Source of the DNA: Halobacteriovorax sp. | GTDB taxonomy: Bacteria; Bdellovibrionota; Bacteriovoracia; Bacteriovoracales; Bacteriovoracaceae | NCBI GenBank assembly: GCA_024686135.1 | Contig: JAIBDQ010000018.1 | Coordinates: 1 to 35,297, forward strand | DNA: 35,297 nt | Direction of reading: 5' to 3' | Shown: piece after piece, positions 16,676 to 33,506 of the stretch | Position numbering within the stretch: position 1 is the first letter of the stretch | Layout of the letters: each line of letters begins with the position of its first letter | Program-made: the position numbers and the translations under genes | Notes under the pieces: generated by a model | Seen by the model: the letters and a program-made list of their open reading frames with translations, nothing else | Database searches by the model: none | Told to the model about the DNA's origin: nothing

Positions 16676-16706
16676 AAGAGGACCTCAATCGAGATCCTCT
16701 TTATTA
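16676..16706 (+). terminator. Rho-independent-like terminator after the PilZ gene
   Basis: An 11-pair stem with a single mismatch (AAGAGGAcCTC, 16676-16686, against GAGaTCCTCTT, 16691-16701) and a four-base AATC loop begins two bases after the stop and runs into TATTATATT. The plus-strand tail is T-rich but interrupted. The convergent minus gene ends just beyond it, so it may serve both directions. Confidence 0.6.
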
Positions 16707-16716
16707 TATTCTTCAA

Positions 16717-17973
16717 TTACTTTAAAAGCTTATAACCTTCTAAAAAGGCTTTGTACTCACGAACAAGAGTGGTTGGATTAGTATTAGGAGTTGTAATCAC
16801 TTTACATGATCCGCCTCTTGGTCCACTACCAAAAATCTTCTTCTTACATTTAATTCTAGCATTACACCCTTTAAAGTCACATTGAAGTGCGTTCCCTGGA
16901 TGAGCTTGAAATCTATTTGTGTTGTTAGCAACAGCATTTTTAATCCCATCAACACATCTTTTGAAGTAGTTCTTATCCTTAGCCGTTGAACAAAGATAAT
17001 CAAATAGAACCGTCTTATAATCTTCCAAATTAGCGTTCTTATCGATGGCCTTTACAGATGGAAAAGAAAATAATTGTAGGGCCATGGCCTTTTCACAACG
17101 CTTATCAGAATTATCAAAATTACAAAAGAATTTTGGAAAACTTAGCCCACCGTCTTCAAAACTTCCCCAGTAACTTGAGTAGTTTTTACGAGCGGTTTTG
17201 AGTCTCCAGCAAACACCTTTTTTACAATCAAGAGCATCTTTAAAGCTTAGTGTGTTTACGCTAAGTTTCTGAGAATCATCTCTATCAGACTTCTTATAAA
17301 AACCGTCTACCTGTAGTCTTTCAAATTTAGTACTTGTTAAGGATCCACTTGCAGGAATTCCCCATACAGTAGATAGCTCGGGAGCAATATTAAAGCCACC
17401 GTTGCAACCATTTAAAGTTGCGTAAGCTAGTTTAGTAAACCTAGGAATTACCTTTTGAAGTGTTGATTTGTGACTTCCTGGTTCAATAGTTCCATTCTTT
17501 TTAGCAAGCTTAATGGCCCATGGACTCGAGTGCCCGTAGTAGTCAAAACTTGCGATCTTATTAAAGAAAAGCATCTCATTAACGAGGTTGTACACATTGA
17601 GAGTAGCATCAACGAGCTTAATAATTGGAAGGTTAAACCTTTGAAAAACCTCATCATTATCTGCACCGTTAACATCGGGCGCTGTTATGATAACAACTTG
17701 ATGTGCCGGGTACATTTCGCGGTACTTATAACCTTGAATTAATCCTGTCTGAAGGAATTGATCTGAGTCTTTCTTCATACTAGAACCGACAACAATTATA
17801 TGAGTTGTCTTTTCAGCGTTTAAGCTAGACTGGCCAAGGGCCGTCACTAAGTACTCGCTAGAGCCCTTATTGGATAGAGAAGAGGAGTCGTCCTCAGACC
17901 GGTCTACGTAGGCAAATACATTGGTAGTAAAGCCCAAGACCACTAGTAGCATCATTATTTTTATAGTTTCCAC
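16717..17973 (-). CDS. Secreted caspase-fold-like (clan CD) protein, putative cysteine peptidase
   Basis: A signal peptide (about 1-21) is followed by an alternating alpha/beta domain. Strand HIIVVGSS (58-65), strand VVIITAPD (93-100), then ASFDYYGHSSP with H148 and AYATLNGCNGG with C190 reproduce the order His-after-strand, Cys-after-strand found in clan CD enzymes (caspase, gingipain, clostripain, CHAT). The C-terminal ~170 residues are Cys-rich (DCKKGVCW, FFCNF, GCNARIKCKK), likely disulfide-bonded. The start is GTG 17973 without a good ribosome site; ATG 17955 is an alternative. The catalytic role is inferred from motif order alone; an inactive relative is possible. Confidence 0.5.
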   Translation of the reverse strand: METIKIMMLLVVLGFTTNVFAYVDRSEDDSSSLSNKGSSEYLVTALGQSSLNAEKTTHIIVVGSSMKKDSDQFLQTGLIQGYKYREMYPAHQVVIITAPDVNGADNDEVFQRFNLPIIKLVDATLNVYNLVNEMLFFNKIASFDYYGHSSPWAIKLAKKNGTIEPGSHKSTLQKVIPRFTKLAYATLNGCNGGFNIAPELSTVWGIPASGSLTSTKFERLQVDGFYKKSDRDDSQKLSVNTLSFKDALDCKKGVCWRLKTARKNYSSYWGSFEDGGLSFPKFFCNFDNSDKRCEKAMALQLFSFPSVKAIDKNANLEDYKTVLFDYLCSTAKDKNYFKRCVDGIKNAVANNTNRFQAHPGNALQCDFKGCNARIKCKKKIFGSGPRGGSCKVITTPNTNPTTLVREYKAFLEGYKLLK

Positions 17974-18004: not shown

Positions 18005-20335
18005 TTAAGGTAATTTTAGACCGTGTATTTTTTTACCACTAAGGCTTTCCACAGCAAGAACAATACAAGGTAAAATAACTAGATCGCAGAATAAGGCCAT
18101 AAATAGGACAAATGATGACAATATTCCGAAGTTCTTATTAGGAGTAAGACTGGCGAACATGAAAAGACCAAAGCCGCTAACCAGAATCATCGTCGTGACT
18201 ATCAAGGCGACTCCGGTACCACTGATGACTTCAGTTAAGGCCTCGATTCGAGGCATTCCTTGTTTTATTAATTTATTATAATGAGAAAGAAAATGAATCG
18301 TATCATCGACTGCAATTCCTAATGTGACAGAAGCAACGATAGCACATCCCACATCCACAGGAGTGTTAATTATAGTGAGAAGTCCAGCCCCTAAAACGAT
18401 TGGTATGAAATTTGGAATAAGTGAAAGAAGACCCATTTTAAACGATCGATAAACCACGATAAGGATAATTGTGATCAATACTAAGGCCATGCCCATGGAG
18501 GTGGTAAACGTTTCTACAACATAGCCATTCATTCTTTGAAATAATACTGGTTTTCCAGTTGAGGCCATTTTTAAACCTAACTCTCTTGCCTTGTCTTCTA
18601 TTTCTTCAATCCTAATTAAGCTCTCTTTAGAGTTTTGAACACTCCATAAGATGCTTAGCCTTAATTCCCTTTGTTTTAAATCAATTCTATTATTTAAGTC
18701 CATTCCTTGTGGAAGGCCCATTGTGTATAGAAAAATCTCTTGAGCAATCATTTCTTTTGAGTCAGGAATTCGGTACATCTCCTCTATTCCCCCATGTAGG
18801 GATTGATTGACCTCTTTTATAATATCAGTAATAGAAATGATCCGATTGATGTACTCTCTTTGATTCAACCAGTTTTGGAAGTTGTCTACGGTCTTTAAGA
18901 AAGTAGGATCCGTAATTCCATTTTCTTTTCCGCTATCAATAACAAGCTCTGGTCCACCTACCCCTTTAAAGGTCTTTAAAGTGAATTGATTCCCGATACT
19001 TATCGGATTGCTATCATTAAAGTACTCATAGGGGTTTGAGTTCACTTCATTTTGTAAGGCAAGCCAGGTAAAACTACCTGTGATCAAGATAAAAGCGACA
19101 AGAATTGACTTATGCCATCTTTCCAAGAAATTAACATACCTACGGGCCGTAAGCTTTTTGATGGTTCTTCCACCTCTTTGTGCTTTGCTTGATCCAACAT
19201 TAAAGAGAATCAAAGTAGAAGGTATATAAAGAAGAGATAATACAAAGGCCATTATGGTTGCTATTCCGGCCAAAAGCCCCATCTCAGCAACGGGTCTAAC
19301 ATCTGAAGTCGTCAAGCTAAAGAAACCGATCGCCGTAGAAATTGAAGTAAGAAAGATTGGTGAAATATTTTTATCAAGTGCGGCCCTAAGCGATGTTTTT
19401 AAATCCGCGCCTTCAGCGTACTTATCAAAATAAGTTGATAAGAGATGGACCGAGTCAGCAATGGCGATGGCAATGATAATCCCCGGCAAAATAAAAGTTA
19501 AACTATTCATTTTAATCTGGAGAAATCCAATTAATCCCATCATAAAAATTAAAGTCGTACCAATTATAGTGAGAGGCAAAAAGACGCCCCAAAAGTTTTT
19601 AAAACAAAAAATAAGATAAACAATAACCAATACTACGAGAATAGGATTGATGGTTCTTAAATCTTCAAAGGAAGTTCTCTTAAAGGTTACATTTAAGGAA
19701 GGAGCTCCCAAAATATGAAACTTAATATCTTGCGGAGCTAATACTTCATCACCAATTTTTTGAAAACCATCAAAGATCGCATCAAAGTCCACTTCTCCTT
19801 CAGGTTTTTGAACAACTCGTCCATATATGACCGCTGATTTATAGTCCCTAGTTAGAAATACTCCGGGAAGAACCTTATGAACTTGAAAGGCTTTTTTCCT
19901 TTTTTCTAAAAAGCCCTCATCATCAATCTCTTCAAAAGGAATAAATTCCTCTGTCGAAATATCGTCTTCTTCAGAGGTCGTTAAATTCTGATTATTAAGA
20001 GAATCAACTCTGGCAATATCCGGGATCAGCCAAATGGCTTCTGTAACTTTATGAAGAGTTTTAAGTTTTTCTTTATTAAAGAACCCTTCATCTGAATGCA
20101 TAACCAATACGGCAGACTCATCGTTTCCAAACTTCTTCTCAAAGGAATCTAGCTGGGTGATATTGGGATCATTTGCCCTGAACCAGGTTCTAGCGGAAAA
20201 GTCCAAAACAATATTTGTAGAATAAGAAACAAAGATAAAGGTAATCAGCAGACCAAGAGTGAGTGCTGACTTTGGGTAACCCATACAATAGCGAATGATA
20301 AGGTCTTTAAATCGTTCCACATGCTCTTTTAACAC
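18005..20335 (-). CDS. RND-superfamily exporter (MMPL/HAE3-type, SSD-like)
   Basis: At 776 residues it has the duplicated RND plan: a helix near 25-45, a periplasmic loop, five helices (about 225-375), a sixth near 405-425, a second periplasmic loop and five more helices (about 615-765). Family landmarks are AIADSVHLLSTYF in repeat one and GIAVDDTIHFLSHY in repeat two, which contain the proton-relay acidic residues. The proteins of this group export lipids or hydrophobic molecules. The start is GTG 20335 with a weak ribosome site. No outer-membrane or adaptor partner is adjacent. Confidence 0.85.
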   Translation of the reverse strand: MLKEHVERFKDLIIRYCMGYPKSALTLGLLITFIFVSYSTNIVLDFSARTWFRANDPNITQLDSFEKKFGNDESAVLVMHSDEGFFNKEKLKTLHKVTEAIWLIPDIARVDSLNNQNLTTSEEDDISTEEFIPFEEIDDEGFLEKRKKAFQVHKVLPGVFLTRDYKSAVIYGRVVQKPEGEVDFDAIFDGFQKIGDEVLAPQDIKFHILGAPSLNVTFKRTSFEDLRTINPILVVLVIVYLIFCFKNFWGVFLPLTIIGTTLIFMMGLIGFLQIKMNSLTFILPGIIIAIAIADSVHLLSTYFDKYAEGADLKTSLRAALDKNISPIFLTSISTAIGFFSLTTSDVRPVAEMGLLAGIATIMAFVLSLLYIPSTLILFNVGSSKAQRGGRTIKKLTARRYVNFLERWHKSILVAFILITGSFTWLALQNEVNSNPYEYFNDSNPISIGNQFTLKTFKGVGGPELVIDSGKENGITDPTFLKTVDNFQNWLNQREYINRIISITDIIKEVNQSLHGGIEEMYRIPDSKEMIAQEIFLYTMGLPQGMDLNNRIDLKQRELRLSILWSVQNSKESLIRIEEIEDKARELGLKMASTGKPVLFQRMNGYVVETFTTSMGMALVLITIILIVVYRSFKMGLLSLIPNFIPIVLGAGLLTIINTPVDVGCAIVASVTLGIAVDDTIHFLSHYNKLIKQGMPRIEALTEVISGTGVALIVTTMILVSGFGLFMFASLTPNKNFGILSSFVLFMALFCDLVILPCIVLAVESLSGKKIHGLKLP

Positions 20336-29480: not shown

Positions 29481-32400
29481 ATGTCAGCTCACCACAATGA
29501 CGACGAAAACAAAGACGACGGTTCCGTTTGGACCTCCTATTCTGACTTATTCACAACTGTCGCCGTCATCTTTCTTGTTATGTTTGTCTTTGCCCTCCTC
29601 AGATCTGGAATAAATACGGCTAAGGCCCTGCGAGAAAAACAGGCACAAAAAGAAATCCTTGAAGGAAAGATTCCTGAAAAACTTGCTCTAGATAATCAAA
29701 AAAAGAAAGACACCTTAGATAAATCTATAAAAGAAATGGATAGTTTTAATGAAGTCATTGATCAAAAAATGATGGAAATTAATACTTTCCAAGAAAAAAT
29801 GAAAAAGCACCAAAATGTGATGGTGGATCTTCTTAAAGACCAAGAAATTAAAGAAACGGTTATGGCCGAACTTCGAAAGGAATTGGATCAAAAAGAAGTG
29901 GATATGGTTAAAACGACTCAAAAAATTGATGACCTCAATAAAACTATAGAACAAAAAATAGCCGCCTTGAGTGAGAATAAAAAAGAAACTATCGCTCTAG
30001 AGAAAAGGAAAATTGAGTTAAAAAAACAGATCGTCGACTGGGAACAAAAAGTTGTTGAAATAGAAGAACAACATGAAGAGAAAATCATTAAGAAGAATGA
30101 AGATATAAAAAGCCTGCAATTAGAGGTTTTAAATAAAGACCAATCCAACGACCAGCTAGAACAAAAAATAACTAACTTGAAAAAGGTAGAAATAGAGAAA
30201 GTTGAAATCATTAAAAGTCTTGAGAACAATGTCGAGGGTCTAAATAAAGATTTACTAACAAAGAAAGAAGAATTGAAAGGCCTTGAAAGTAATTTAATTG
30301 AAACTAAAAAAACCGTTAAGATTAAGTCTGCCAATATTGAAAATCTACAAAAGAAGCTCACAAACGAATTAGAAATAAATCAACAACTTGATAATAAAGT
30401 AGTCGACCTCTCTAAAGATCTTCGACAGACTCAAAAAGAAGTTAAACTGGCTAAGTCTGAAATTGCTCAGAACAAGAATCAAATACAGGAAAAAATTAAG
30501 AAGATCCAAGAATTAAAGCAAAATGTTGCTGATCAAAATCTTGTCAATCAAGATTTAAATAAAAATATTGAAAAGCTTGATCAGACTGTGACTAAAGCCA
30601 AAAACCAAATCAAGGCCCTTGAAAATCAAGTTAGTAATAAAGATCAAAGAATCACAAACTTAGATAAGGAATTAACCAATCTACAAAAAACTTATGATCA
30701 ATCAGTTATTGATAATCAAAAACTTAATAAAAAGTCAGAGAATCTAACTGCACAACTGGCCTTAACCACTGAACAGCTTCAATTAGAACAACTAGATAAA
30801 GCCAATATTGAAGTAGACTATAAGGCTGCCGTAAAGAAAGCCGAAGAGATGCATAAAAACATAGAGAACATGAGACAAAATGTAGATGGTTTACACAAAC
30901 AAATCACGGCTAAAGAAAACATCGTTAAAGATCTCGAAGTTCGTCTAGCTTCTTCAAAAGCCAAAAACTTTAAAAGTAATAACAAAAATACGGCACTCAA
31001 TAGTAAGGTTACGAGTCTAGAGACCCAAATTAATAAATTAAATAGTGAACTTAAAAATGAAAAAGAAAATAAAAATAAGGTTAATCAAGACTTAGCAAAC
31101 CTAGAACAAAATTATTCAAGAAATGAGAACAAAAGAAAAGAACTGAAGTCCGTTATTAATGGCCTTAATCGTCAGATAACAAATCTACAATCAGATATAA
31201 ATTCTAAAGATAGTAAGAACAAAGGACTTAATAACGAAGTAGCCAAGTTAATGAAGCAACTTGATGGGCAAATGAGTAATAACGGAAAACTAAGTCAGAA
31301 TATCGATTCTCTTAAAAAGCAAGTAAATGAACTAAACAGTTCACTTGGGCAAAGAGCGGCAAATCAAAAAACTCTTGAACAAAGGGTCGCCACACTTAAG
31401 AATGGCATTCTTAGAAGAGATGGAAACAATCAAGAGTTAAGTAAGAATATTGAGGATCTAGAAAATAAAGTTGCCGGACTCAATTCAGACCTTCAAAAGA
31501 AGGGCCAAACTGTAAAAGGGCTAGAGTCACTTTTAAAAGATTTACAGAGTAAATACGCCTCAGCCCAGAATGAATGGAGTAAAACTAAAAATCAGGGTAA
31601 CCAAAAAGATAATCTTATCTCGCAGCTAAAAAACCGAATCGCTACAATGAACAACCAGATCTCGAAGAATGGTCAGGTAAGCATGGGGATTAAAGAAAGG
31701 TTTGATCGCATGGCCAATGATTACTCTAAGGCACTAAACAGAAGTAAAGGGCAGGAGGAAGAGCTAAGAAAGCTAAATAATAAGGTTCGTGAACTCTATG
31801 CCCAAATGGAAACAGATAAATTTCAAGAGATTGAACCAAACAAACTAGAAGAAGAAAATACGATGCTAGCTCAGCAAAATGCCGTTCTTAAGAAGTTACT
31901 CGAAAGAAGAGAAAAGGAAGCTACCAATAAGGCAAAAGATGAAGGAAGAAAGATAGCTAGTGTTCAAAACTCACTACGGGCTCATATTGGAAAGAAAATC
32001 GCAGATAGAATGAAAGCTGCCAACTTAGATGTTTTTGTGGATCCTAACACTGGAGCCGTAATCCTAAGAATGGATAATAGCTTTTTGTTCAAGAGAAACT
32101 CGGCGGACTTATCTAATGGACTTAAAAAGACCTTAAAAAATGTCATCCCCCTTTATGTTGATGAATTGTTTAAAGATGCTGGAGTGGCAAACAAGATCAA
32201 TCACGTTAATATTATTGGTCACGCCTCCCCTAGACATAGACAAAAATACGTAGACCCGCTTGGCAAGAATATTAGGGCCTATAATTTCAACTTAGATTTA
32301 AGTTCAGACCGCGCAAGAAGTATTGTGAAATACATTTTTGGCCGTCAATTCGGAACTTTTGAATATGCACCTCAATTTAGGCAAAAAGTACAGGCCATAG

Positions 32401-32549
32401 GAAAAAGTTTTTCAGATCCTGTCCTAAGAAAACCTGGGTCAATAAAGAAGCCCAGTAATGACTGCGGAAAGTATGATTGTAAGCTAAGCCGCCGAGTAGA
32501 GATCAGTTTTACGCTTAAAGATAATAAAGACGTTTGGGAAAATAAATAA
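29481..32549 (+). CDS. Giant MotB-like stator protein: one TM helix, ~750-residue coiled coil, OmpA-like C-terminus
   Basis: TSYSDLFTTVAVIFLVMFVF (18-37) aligns with the MotB transmembrane segment YADFMTAMMAFFLVM, putting D22 at the ion-carrying aspartate. A Lys/Glu/Asn/Gln-rich coiled coil follows (about 50-800), with repeated LNKDL-, NLQKK-like heptads. The last ~190 residues form an OmpA/MotB-like domain: FLFKRNSADL (867-876), VNIIGHASPR (909-918), NLDLSSDRARSIVKYI and RRVEISF, expected to bind peptidoglycan, plus a CGKYDC pair. MotB is about 300 residues; the coil is the unusual part. In MotB orientation the coil would be periplasmic. AGGAG precedes ATG by six bases. It pairs with the MotA/TolQ-like protein after it. 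Confidence 0.8.
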   Translation: MSAHHNDDENKDDGSVWTSYSDLFTTVAVIFLVMFVFALLRSGINTAKALREKQAQKEILEGKIPEKLALDNQKKKDTLDKSIKEMDSFNEVIDQKMMEINTFQEKMKKHQNVMVDLLKDQEIKETVMAELRKELDQKEVDMVKTTQKIDDLNKTIEQKIAALSENKKETIALEKRKIELKKQIVDWEQKVVEIEEQHEEKIIKKNEDIKSLQLEVLNKDQSNDQLEQKITNLKKVEIEKVEIIKSLENNVEGLNKDLLTKKEELKGLESNLIETKKTVKIKSANIENLQKKLTNELEINQQLDNKVVDLSKDLRQTQKEVKLAKSEIAQNKNQIQEKIKKIQELKQNVADQNLVNQDLNKNIEKLDQTVTKAKNQIKALENQVSNKDQRITNLDKELTNLQKTYDQSVIDNQKLNKKSENLTAQLALTTEQLQLEQLDKANIEVDYKAAVKKAEEMHKNIENMRQNVDGLHKQITAKENIVKDLEVRLASSKAKNFKSNNKNTALNSKVTSLETQINKLNSELKNEKENKNKVNQDLANLEQNYSRNENKRKELKSVINGLNRQITNLQSDINSKDSKNKGLNNEVAKLMKQLDGQMSNNGKLSQNIDSLKKQVNELNSSLGQRAANQKTLEQRVATLKNGILRRDGNNQELSKNIEDLENKVAGLNSDLQKKGQTVKGLESLLKDLQSKYASAQNEWSKTKNQGNQKDNLISQLKNRIATMNNQISKNGQVSMGIKERFDRMANDYSKALNRSKGQEEELRKLNNKVRELYAQMETDKFQEIEPNKLEEENTMLAQQNAVLKKLLERREKEATNKAKDEGRKIASVQNSLRAHIGKKIADRMKAANLDVFVDPNTGAVILRMDNSFLFKRNSADLSNGLKKTLKNVIPLYVDELFKDAGVANKINHVNIIGHASPRHRQKYVDPLGKNIRAYNFNLDLSSDRARSIVKYIFGRQFGTFEYAPQFRQKVQAIGKSFSDPVLRKPGSIKKPSNDCGKYDCKLSRRVEISFTLKDNKDVWENK

Positions 32550-32567
32550 CTCGTAAGGGAGTAAGTT

Positions 32568-33506
32568 GTGATACTTAACATGGTTTTTGACTTTTTTAGT
32601 AACTACCTAATTGAATTCATGGGTTCAATGCTTGTCATCGGTCTTGGATTCAGATGGGCCAGTTGGCATGCGAGTAAAAGGGAAGATGCCTATTTTACAG
32701 GTTTTACCTCTGAAATAGAAAAGACTATCCTACTTCAAAAAGATGTCACCCATGAACAAGTCGAAGATGTGGATAAGTATCTAGTAGAACTCCTAGAAAC
32801 GGTCAGTGAAAAGCTCCCCACTCGTAGCCTTAGAAATAAAAAGCAATCAAAGAGCAACCAGGAAACCGCCGAAAAAATGGGGGCTCAAAATGTTGTTTCC
32901 CTAAGAGAGTATGTAAAAGGGGATCAAAGCTTATTCCTTGGGATAAAAAATGAAAGTGCTTCTTTTAAGTCTAAGTTCCCACCAAATTTTAATGAGCTAA
33001 CAGATCGAATTCTGGAAAAAGATGACAACTGGAATAAGCTATTAAACTTTTTTCCAATAGGTCCGATTTCAAGGTTGATCGATATCCTACCAGGACTTTT
33101 TGTTGTCTTCGGAATCTTCGGTACTTTTATCGGAATCTCAATGGCGCTTCCAAAAATTGCAGAGATGGATTTTAATAATCTTGAAGCTTCAGGTGAAATA
33201 CTGACTCAGTTCGTACTAAGTGTAACTTATGCCATGAAAACAAGTATTGCTGGTATTCTCTTTTCAGTGATTATGACTCTTCTAAATACGATCGCTCCAG
33301 TAACTGGTATGAGAAATAGAACTTATAAAAAGATTTCAAATTGTTTTGAAAATATCTGGCATTCAATTCATGGTGAAAAGTCTATTGAGGAAGAAATGCA
33401 CGAAGTCCTTCCTGCTCTTTTAGAGGAAGTTAAGGCGCTTAGAAAAGCGGCTGAAGATAAAAATGAATCAGATGAGGAGAAACTTGAGCATAAGGAAGGA
33501 GCTTAA
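32568..33506 (+). CDS. MotA/TolQ/ExbB-type proton-channel subunit of the motor
   Basis: Three membrane helices: near 15-30, 171-193 (ILPGLFVVFGIFGTFIGISMAL) and 213-245 (TYAMKTSIAGILFSVIMTLLN), with about 140 cytoplasmic residues between the first two. The GIFGTFIGI and TSIAGILFS segments are the PF01618 hallmarks that line the ion path. The pore-facing helices would meet D22 of the upstream MotB-like protein. A C-terminal charged helix ends the protein. Start is GTG 32568, six bases after AAGGGAG; ATG 32580 is an alternative. The next gene begins two bases after the stop. Confidence 0.82.
   Translation: MILNMVFDFFSNYLIEFMGSMLVIGLGFRWASWHASKREDAYFTGFTSEIEKTILLQKDVTHEQVEDVDKYLVELLETVSEKLPTRSLRNKKQSKSNQETAEKMGAQNVVSLREYVKGDQSLFLGIKNESASFKSKFPPNFNELTDRILEKDDNWNKLLNFFPIGPISRLIDILPGLFVVFGIFGTFIGISMALPKIAEMDFNNLEASGEILTQFVLSVTYAMKTSIAGILFSVIMTLLNTIAPVTGMRNRTYKKISNCFENIWHSIHGEKSIEEEMHEVLPALLEEVKALRKAAEDKNESDEEKLEHKEGA

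Follow-up and report, generated by a model that had tools for sequence, protein, structure and literature searches.

The question raised by this locus is whether a bacterium of the phylum Bdellovibrionota exports a cysteine peptidase of the caspase type that stands outside the named families. The window, that is, the whole stretch of 35,297 nucleotides that was analysed, comes from Halobacteriovorax sp., and the gene under study lies on its minus strand. A preliminary description had proposed a secreted, caspase-fold-like protein with His148, Cys190 and a Cys-rich tail, which would belong to the clan CD peptidases and could digest prey or process surface proteins. The best explanation of our results is a new exported, disulfide-locked, clan-CD-like (caspase/haemoglobinase-type) cysteine peptidase family of Bdellovibrionota, to which a probability of about two in three is given.

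The gene and its product

The gene (16717–17973, minus strand) begins with a GTG start codon and encodes a product of 418 residues, annotated here as an exported caspase-like (DUF4347/C14-related) putative cysteine peptidase. Two other species of the genus (Halobacteriovorax MAGs) have orthologues with 92% and 74% identity, which begin at the same position. Residues 1–21 (METIKIMMLLVVLGFTTNVFA; 17911–17973, minus strand) form a putative signal peptide with a Sec-type look, assigned by visual inspection and a simple rule, which would end between NVFA and Y. A signal-peptide-like hydrophobic N-terminus was observed in 63 of 65 family members by the same kind of simple rule, not by SignalP, and a simple-rule scan of the N-termini gave a lipobox in none of the 65. 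The proposed secretion is thus borne out as predicted export.

The putative catalytic core covers residues 45–245 (17239–17841, minus strand), and its alpha/beta fold is predicted from an AF2 core model together with profile matches to DUF4347 and C14. According to the predicted secondary structure, a strand at residues 139–146 leads to the putative catalytic His148 (17530–17559, minus strand), and a strand at residues 179–188 leads to the putative nucleophile Cys190 in NGCNGG (17404–17439, minus strand). The codon of His148 is 17532–17530, within YYGHSSP, and that of Cys190 is 17406–17404, within LNGCNGG, exactly where both residues had been placed before. The C-terminal domain, residues 246–418 (16720–17238, minus strand), has no Pfam match. 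It contains Tyr265, Arg257 and Gly270 as well as ten cysteines between positions 250 and 390, so that the Cys-rich tail of the preliminary description is real.

Conserved residues and cysteine pairs

Conservation was assessed with 65 distinct members, whose pairwise identity has a mean of 31% and a median of 27%. Only eight residues are invariant: His148, Cys190, Ala197, Gly210, Tyr265, Cys328, Cys340, and Cys365. Since both His148 and Cys190 are kept in 65 of 65 members at such a low median identity, the motif pair is not a product of chance. The order required of clan CD, His followed by Cys, is found here with both residues invariant. The residue before His148 is glycine in 42 members, including the window protein, serine in 17, and another residue in six; a glycine preceding the catalytic His is given as a clan CD feature (PMC12445089). 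The residue after Cys190 is Asn or Ser in every member. A serine-hydrolase elbow (GHSxx or GHSS) at the first motif was also considered, and it was dismissed because Ser149 is lost in 25 of the 65 members.

The mature window protein has 11 cysteines, namely Cys190 and the ten at 250, 255, 284, 293, 328, 340, 365, 370, 376, and 390. Most of the ten vary as pairs among the 65 members. Cys250 and Cys255 are both present in 63 and both absent in two; Cys284 and Cys293 are both present in 54 and both absent in 11; Cys376 and Cys390 are both present in 51, both absent in 13, and mixed in one. Fisher tests on these three variable pairs gave p values of 5e-4, 1e-12, and 9e-13, respectively, with sequence relatedness left uncorrected. 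Cys328, Cys340, and Cys365 never vary and Cys370 varies once, so the pairings 328–340 and 365–370 are based on adjacency rather than on covariation. The simplest reading is that five local disulfides are probably formed, 250–255, 284–293, 328–340, 365–370, and 376–390. Because the ten tail cysteines behave as five pairs, Cys190 is left unpaired and, in the same simplest reading, would be the sole free thiol.

Exported Cys-rich proteins often lack enzymatic function, and the family could accordingly consist of exported binding or structural proteins in which His148 and Cys190 are non-catalytic, serving as metal or haem ligands or in redox chemistry. We regard this as very improbable. Only two such ligands are invariant, and in a family that has diverged elsewhere in its sequence, one His and one unpaired Cys are kept at the ends of strands, in register with the catalytic residues of caspases.

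Relationship to the clan CD families

In order to place the family, profiles for DUF4347, C14, C25, and C11 were made from genome matches and compared by hhalign with the family core (residues 45–245). The best match was DUF4347, with a score of 56 and a probability of 95 over approximately residues 122–194. C14 followed with a score of 35–36 and a probability of 55–61. The scores of C25 and C11 were 18 and 14.6, the latter against a null mean of 15.0. As controls, 46 unrelated neighbour families gave scores of at most 24.1, and 100 column shuffles reached a maximum of 22.2 for DUF4347 and 19.9 for C14. The C25 score was attained by seven of 100 shuffles and is at the noise level. Under the same set-up, the accepted clan pair C14 and C25 gave 25.4; therefore, the link between our core and C14 is stronger than that between two accepted members of the clan. 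DUF4347 against C14 gave 32.4 with His and Cys in register. In the alignments with DUF4347, C14, and C25, His148 and Cys190 fall on the His and Cys at the catalytic positions of the partner. A chance resemblance in an unrelated exported protein might be argued from the shortness of the motifs and the weakness of the fold model. That explanation is close to refuted by the invariance in 65 members and by DUF4347 and C14 scores that exceed those of every one of the 46 controls and 100 shuffles.

Compared with DUF4347 (PF14252), the family shares the best profile match of its core and the register of His and Cys. PF14252 itself weakly matched 12 of 24 members (best E 0.0018). However, the best genome matches of family members, 22–23 bits, are under the Pfam cut-off of 24.6 bits, the His motif of DUF4347 is usually HG whereas it is HS, HA, or HN in the window family, and the Cys-rich C-terminal domain was not observed among the DUF4347 proteins examined here. 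No activity of DUF4347 is described in the literature found. The one relevant mention found concerns PA0256, a putative effector of the T6SS whose DUF4347 domain is uncharacterised (PMC8262886). In those members of DUF4347 that were examined from the phylum (L099–L105, L109, L110, and L112), the motifs are xHGxxG and, further on, l-x-S/A/G-C-N/S. From these comparisons, DUF4347 itself may be a clan CD peptidase domain.

The likeness to the C14 caspases and metacaspases (PF00656) consists of a significant profile match with catalytic His and Cys aligned, and the spacing of 42 between His148 and Cys190 equals that between His144 and Cys186 of caspase-7 (PMC4357240). Unlike C14, the window family is exported and disulfide-rich, and no p10-like part was identified in it. 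The similarity is remote and seen by profile–profile comparison only, with Pfam C14 matching none of 24 members.

The other relatives that had been suggested for comparison fared less well. The C25 gingipains (PF01364) are likewise extracellular bacterial clan CD enzymes, and their YMGHGAP and NCDNA align with YYGHSSP and GCNGG, but the profile score is that of noise and Pfam C25 matched none of the 24 members. C80 is an inositol-phosphate-activated self-cutting domain; its Pfam model also matched none of the 24. C11 clostripain (PF03415) belongs to a secreted bacterial clan CD family with His-Gly and Ala-Cys motifs (PMC12445089), yet it has no detectable profile similarity to our family, and Pfam C11 matched none of the 24 members. 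The method used here links C11 to neither C14 nor C25. CHAT members were not found in the 59 genomes searched for profile building. The clan CD reading is thus likely to be correct as far as superfamily and mechanism are concerned, as judged from invariant His and Cys, the order of strand–His and strand–Cys, and the C14 and DUF4347 profiles, with DUF4347 and C14 as probable nearest kin. The kin first named are not the closest ones, with C25 at noise and C11 giving nothing. As a separate observation, the genome of the window also has genes for two gingipain-like C25 proteins (C65:1319–2320, L130, and C157:25–771; E 2e-51 and 4e-40), and C25 occurs in 33 of 97 sampled genomes of the phylum.

Predicted structure

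The AF2 models were built from four sequences. The full-length model had a pLDDT of 44, and the core model a mean pLDDT of 65 with a pTM of 0.69. The more confident parts of the core are the strands 139–146 and 179–188 with their surrounding helices, and His148 and Cys190 each come just after a strand, as described for the catalytic His and Cys of clan CD (PMC4357240). The alternating alpha/beta order of this low-confidence core model is compatible with the caspase/haemoglobinase fold (sheet order 2-1-3-4, helices alpha1–3). A PDB fold search with the core gave generic nucleotide-binding (Rossmann) folds, none at E <= 0.001, and that with the full-length model, at its pLDDT of 44, gave no useful match. 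In the viral library BFVD, a C14 caspase-domain protein appeared at rank 10 for the core (probability 0.98, TM 0.44), and other caspase or metacaspase models were placed at ranks 20 and 26. The structure searches are consistent with a caspase-like fold without proving it. With regard to the structural check suggested in the preliminary description, an alpha/beta core with His and Cys after strands is predicted at low confidence, and the fold search was not diagnostic.

Proposed mechanism

We infer the following mechanism, from the detail of the fold to the peptidase activity, the substrate, and the compartment beyond Sec export. After Sec export, the window protein would fold outside the cytoplasm. 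The C-terminal domain would be fixed to the alpha/beta core by five disulfides, with no thiol other than that of Cys190 remaining free. One core strand would end at His148 and the next at Cys190; the histidine would activate the cysteine, which may then hydrolyse peptide bonds of periplasmic, surface, or prey proteins. Taxonomy and export make a role in predation plausible. If the peptidase reading is true, an exported caspase-type enzyme is added to the list of predator enzymes, DUF4347 gains a testable catalytic hypothesis, and a disulfide-stabilised clan CD scaffold is obtained. A more extended proposal is put forward tentatively, and we are rather doubtful that all of it will hold: the disulfide-locked C-terminal domain would form part of the active site of a new clan CD family, Bdellovibrio-type bacteria would use the enzyme outside the cytoplasm, possibly in the prey periplasm, to cut prey proteins or their own surface proteins, and DUF4347 would be the wider superfamily and also a peptidase.

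Distribution of the family

Relatives were found in 14 of 97 genomes with a single-sequence search. With a 24-member profile, 71 of the 369 genomes searched in the phylum were positive; they represent 26 of 182 genera, and a single genome carries at most four copies. The window gene is single-copy in its own genome. One copy of the family lies at 3070817–3072106 in a genome consisting of a single contig of 3,782,950 bp. Most genomes of the phylum lack the family, which therefore does not belong to the core genes of predation. No family relatives were seen in viral contigs and plasmids.

The family is widespread and multi-copy in Bdellovibrionota, yet it stands outside Pfam and NCBIfam. No model of Pfam, NCBIfam, or PADLOC covers the window protein; single-sequence matches to IS21 and capsid models were dismissed as noise. 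Against the PDB, a single-sequence search gave nothing meaningful, and a search with the A1 profile gave an antibody chain only (E 0.78). None of the 24 scanned members reached a curated clan CD Pfam cut-off. At the level of sequence models, the family is therefore unnamed, and assignment to C14, C25, C11, or DUF4347 is not warranted, because each curated profile test failed.

Gene neighbourhood

The gene immediately upstream, co-directional and 31 bp away, encodes an MMPL/RND-type membrane protein (18005–20335, minus strand; MMPL by Pfam), and it is a conserved neighbour only in the three species of the genus. Being confined to the genus, the linkage was not accepted as a clue to function in general. 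By eye, the transporter is close to acyltransferase-like and hexapeptide-repeat-like genes, and the segment 18005–23347 (minus strand) is possibly an envelope-lipid cluster.

This neighbourhood, together with the generic alpha/beta folds from the fold searches, would suit another thiol hydrolase (amidase, thioesterase, or acyl transferase) with a three-layer alpha/beta fold, possibly tied, in this genus, to the MMPL lipid exporter. Such a hydrolase is considered improbable, since the link to MMPL does not extend beyond the genus, the His-before-Cys order is the reverse of that in alpha/beta hydrolases, and no G-x-C/S-x-G elbow is conserved. Moreover, the profile matches are to C14 and DUF4347 and not to the unrelated controls.

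In two other genera (L081, L085, L093, and L095), a conserved cluster contains, in this order, a family paralogue, an exported protein of about 1030 residues with no Pfam match, a secreted S8 subtilase, and two more genes. In g14, probable Gly-rich lipoproteins of about 290 residues precede the paralogue cluster. Most other contexts of the family differ between lineages, and its members therefore seem to be exported enzymes that stand alone and do not form part of one system.

A clan-CD-like fold with the same dyad could also serve a transpeptidase or ligase, or a self-processing maturase of exported proteins, instead of a digestive peptidase. PorU, among the gingipain relatives, acts in this way. 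The His148/Cys190 evidence applies equally to this possibility, the subtilase or the 1030-residue protein in the two genera could be a client or partner, and a sortase-like mechanism is known from the gingipain-related secretion system (PMC4560394). We nevertheless consider it unlikely, as no client gene is conserved across genera and the neighbourhood differs in most lineages.

Just past the stop codon of the window gene, an inverted repeat, GAGGACCTC-AATC-GAGATCCTC (16678–16699, no strand assigned), was read directly from the sequence and was not reported by the consensus scan. It lies between the window gene and a convergent PilZ gene and is possibly a terminator, shared by the two if so. 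Elsewhere in the window, at 29481–33506, a 1022-residue protein is followed by a MotA/ExbB-like protein of 312 residues. The former combines a membrane segment at the N-terminus with a very long coiled coil and a C-terminus resembling OmpA; by eye, the couple was judged to be an unusual motor-type pair.
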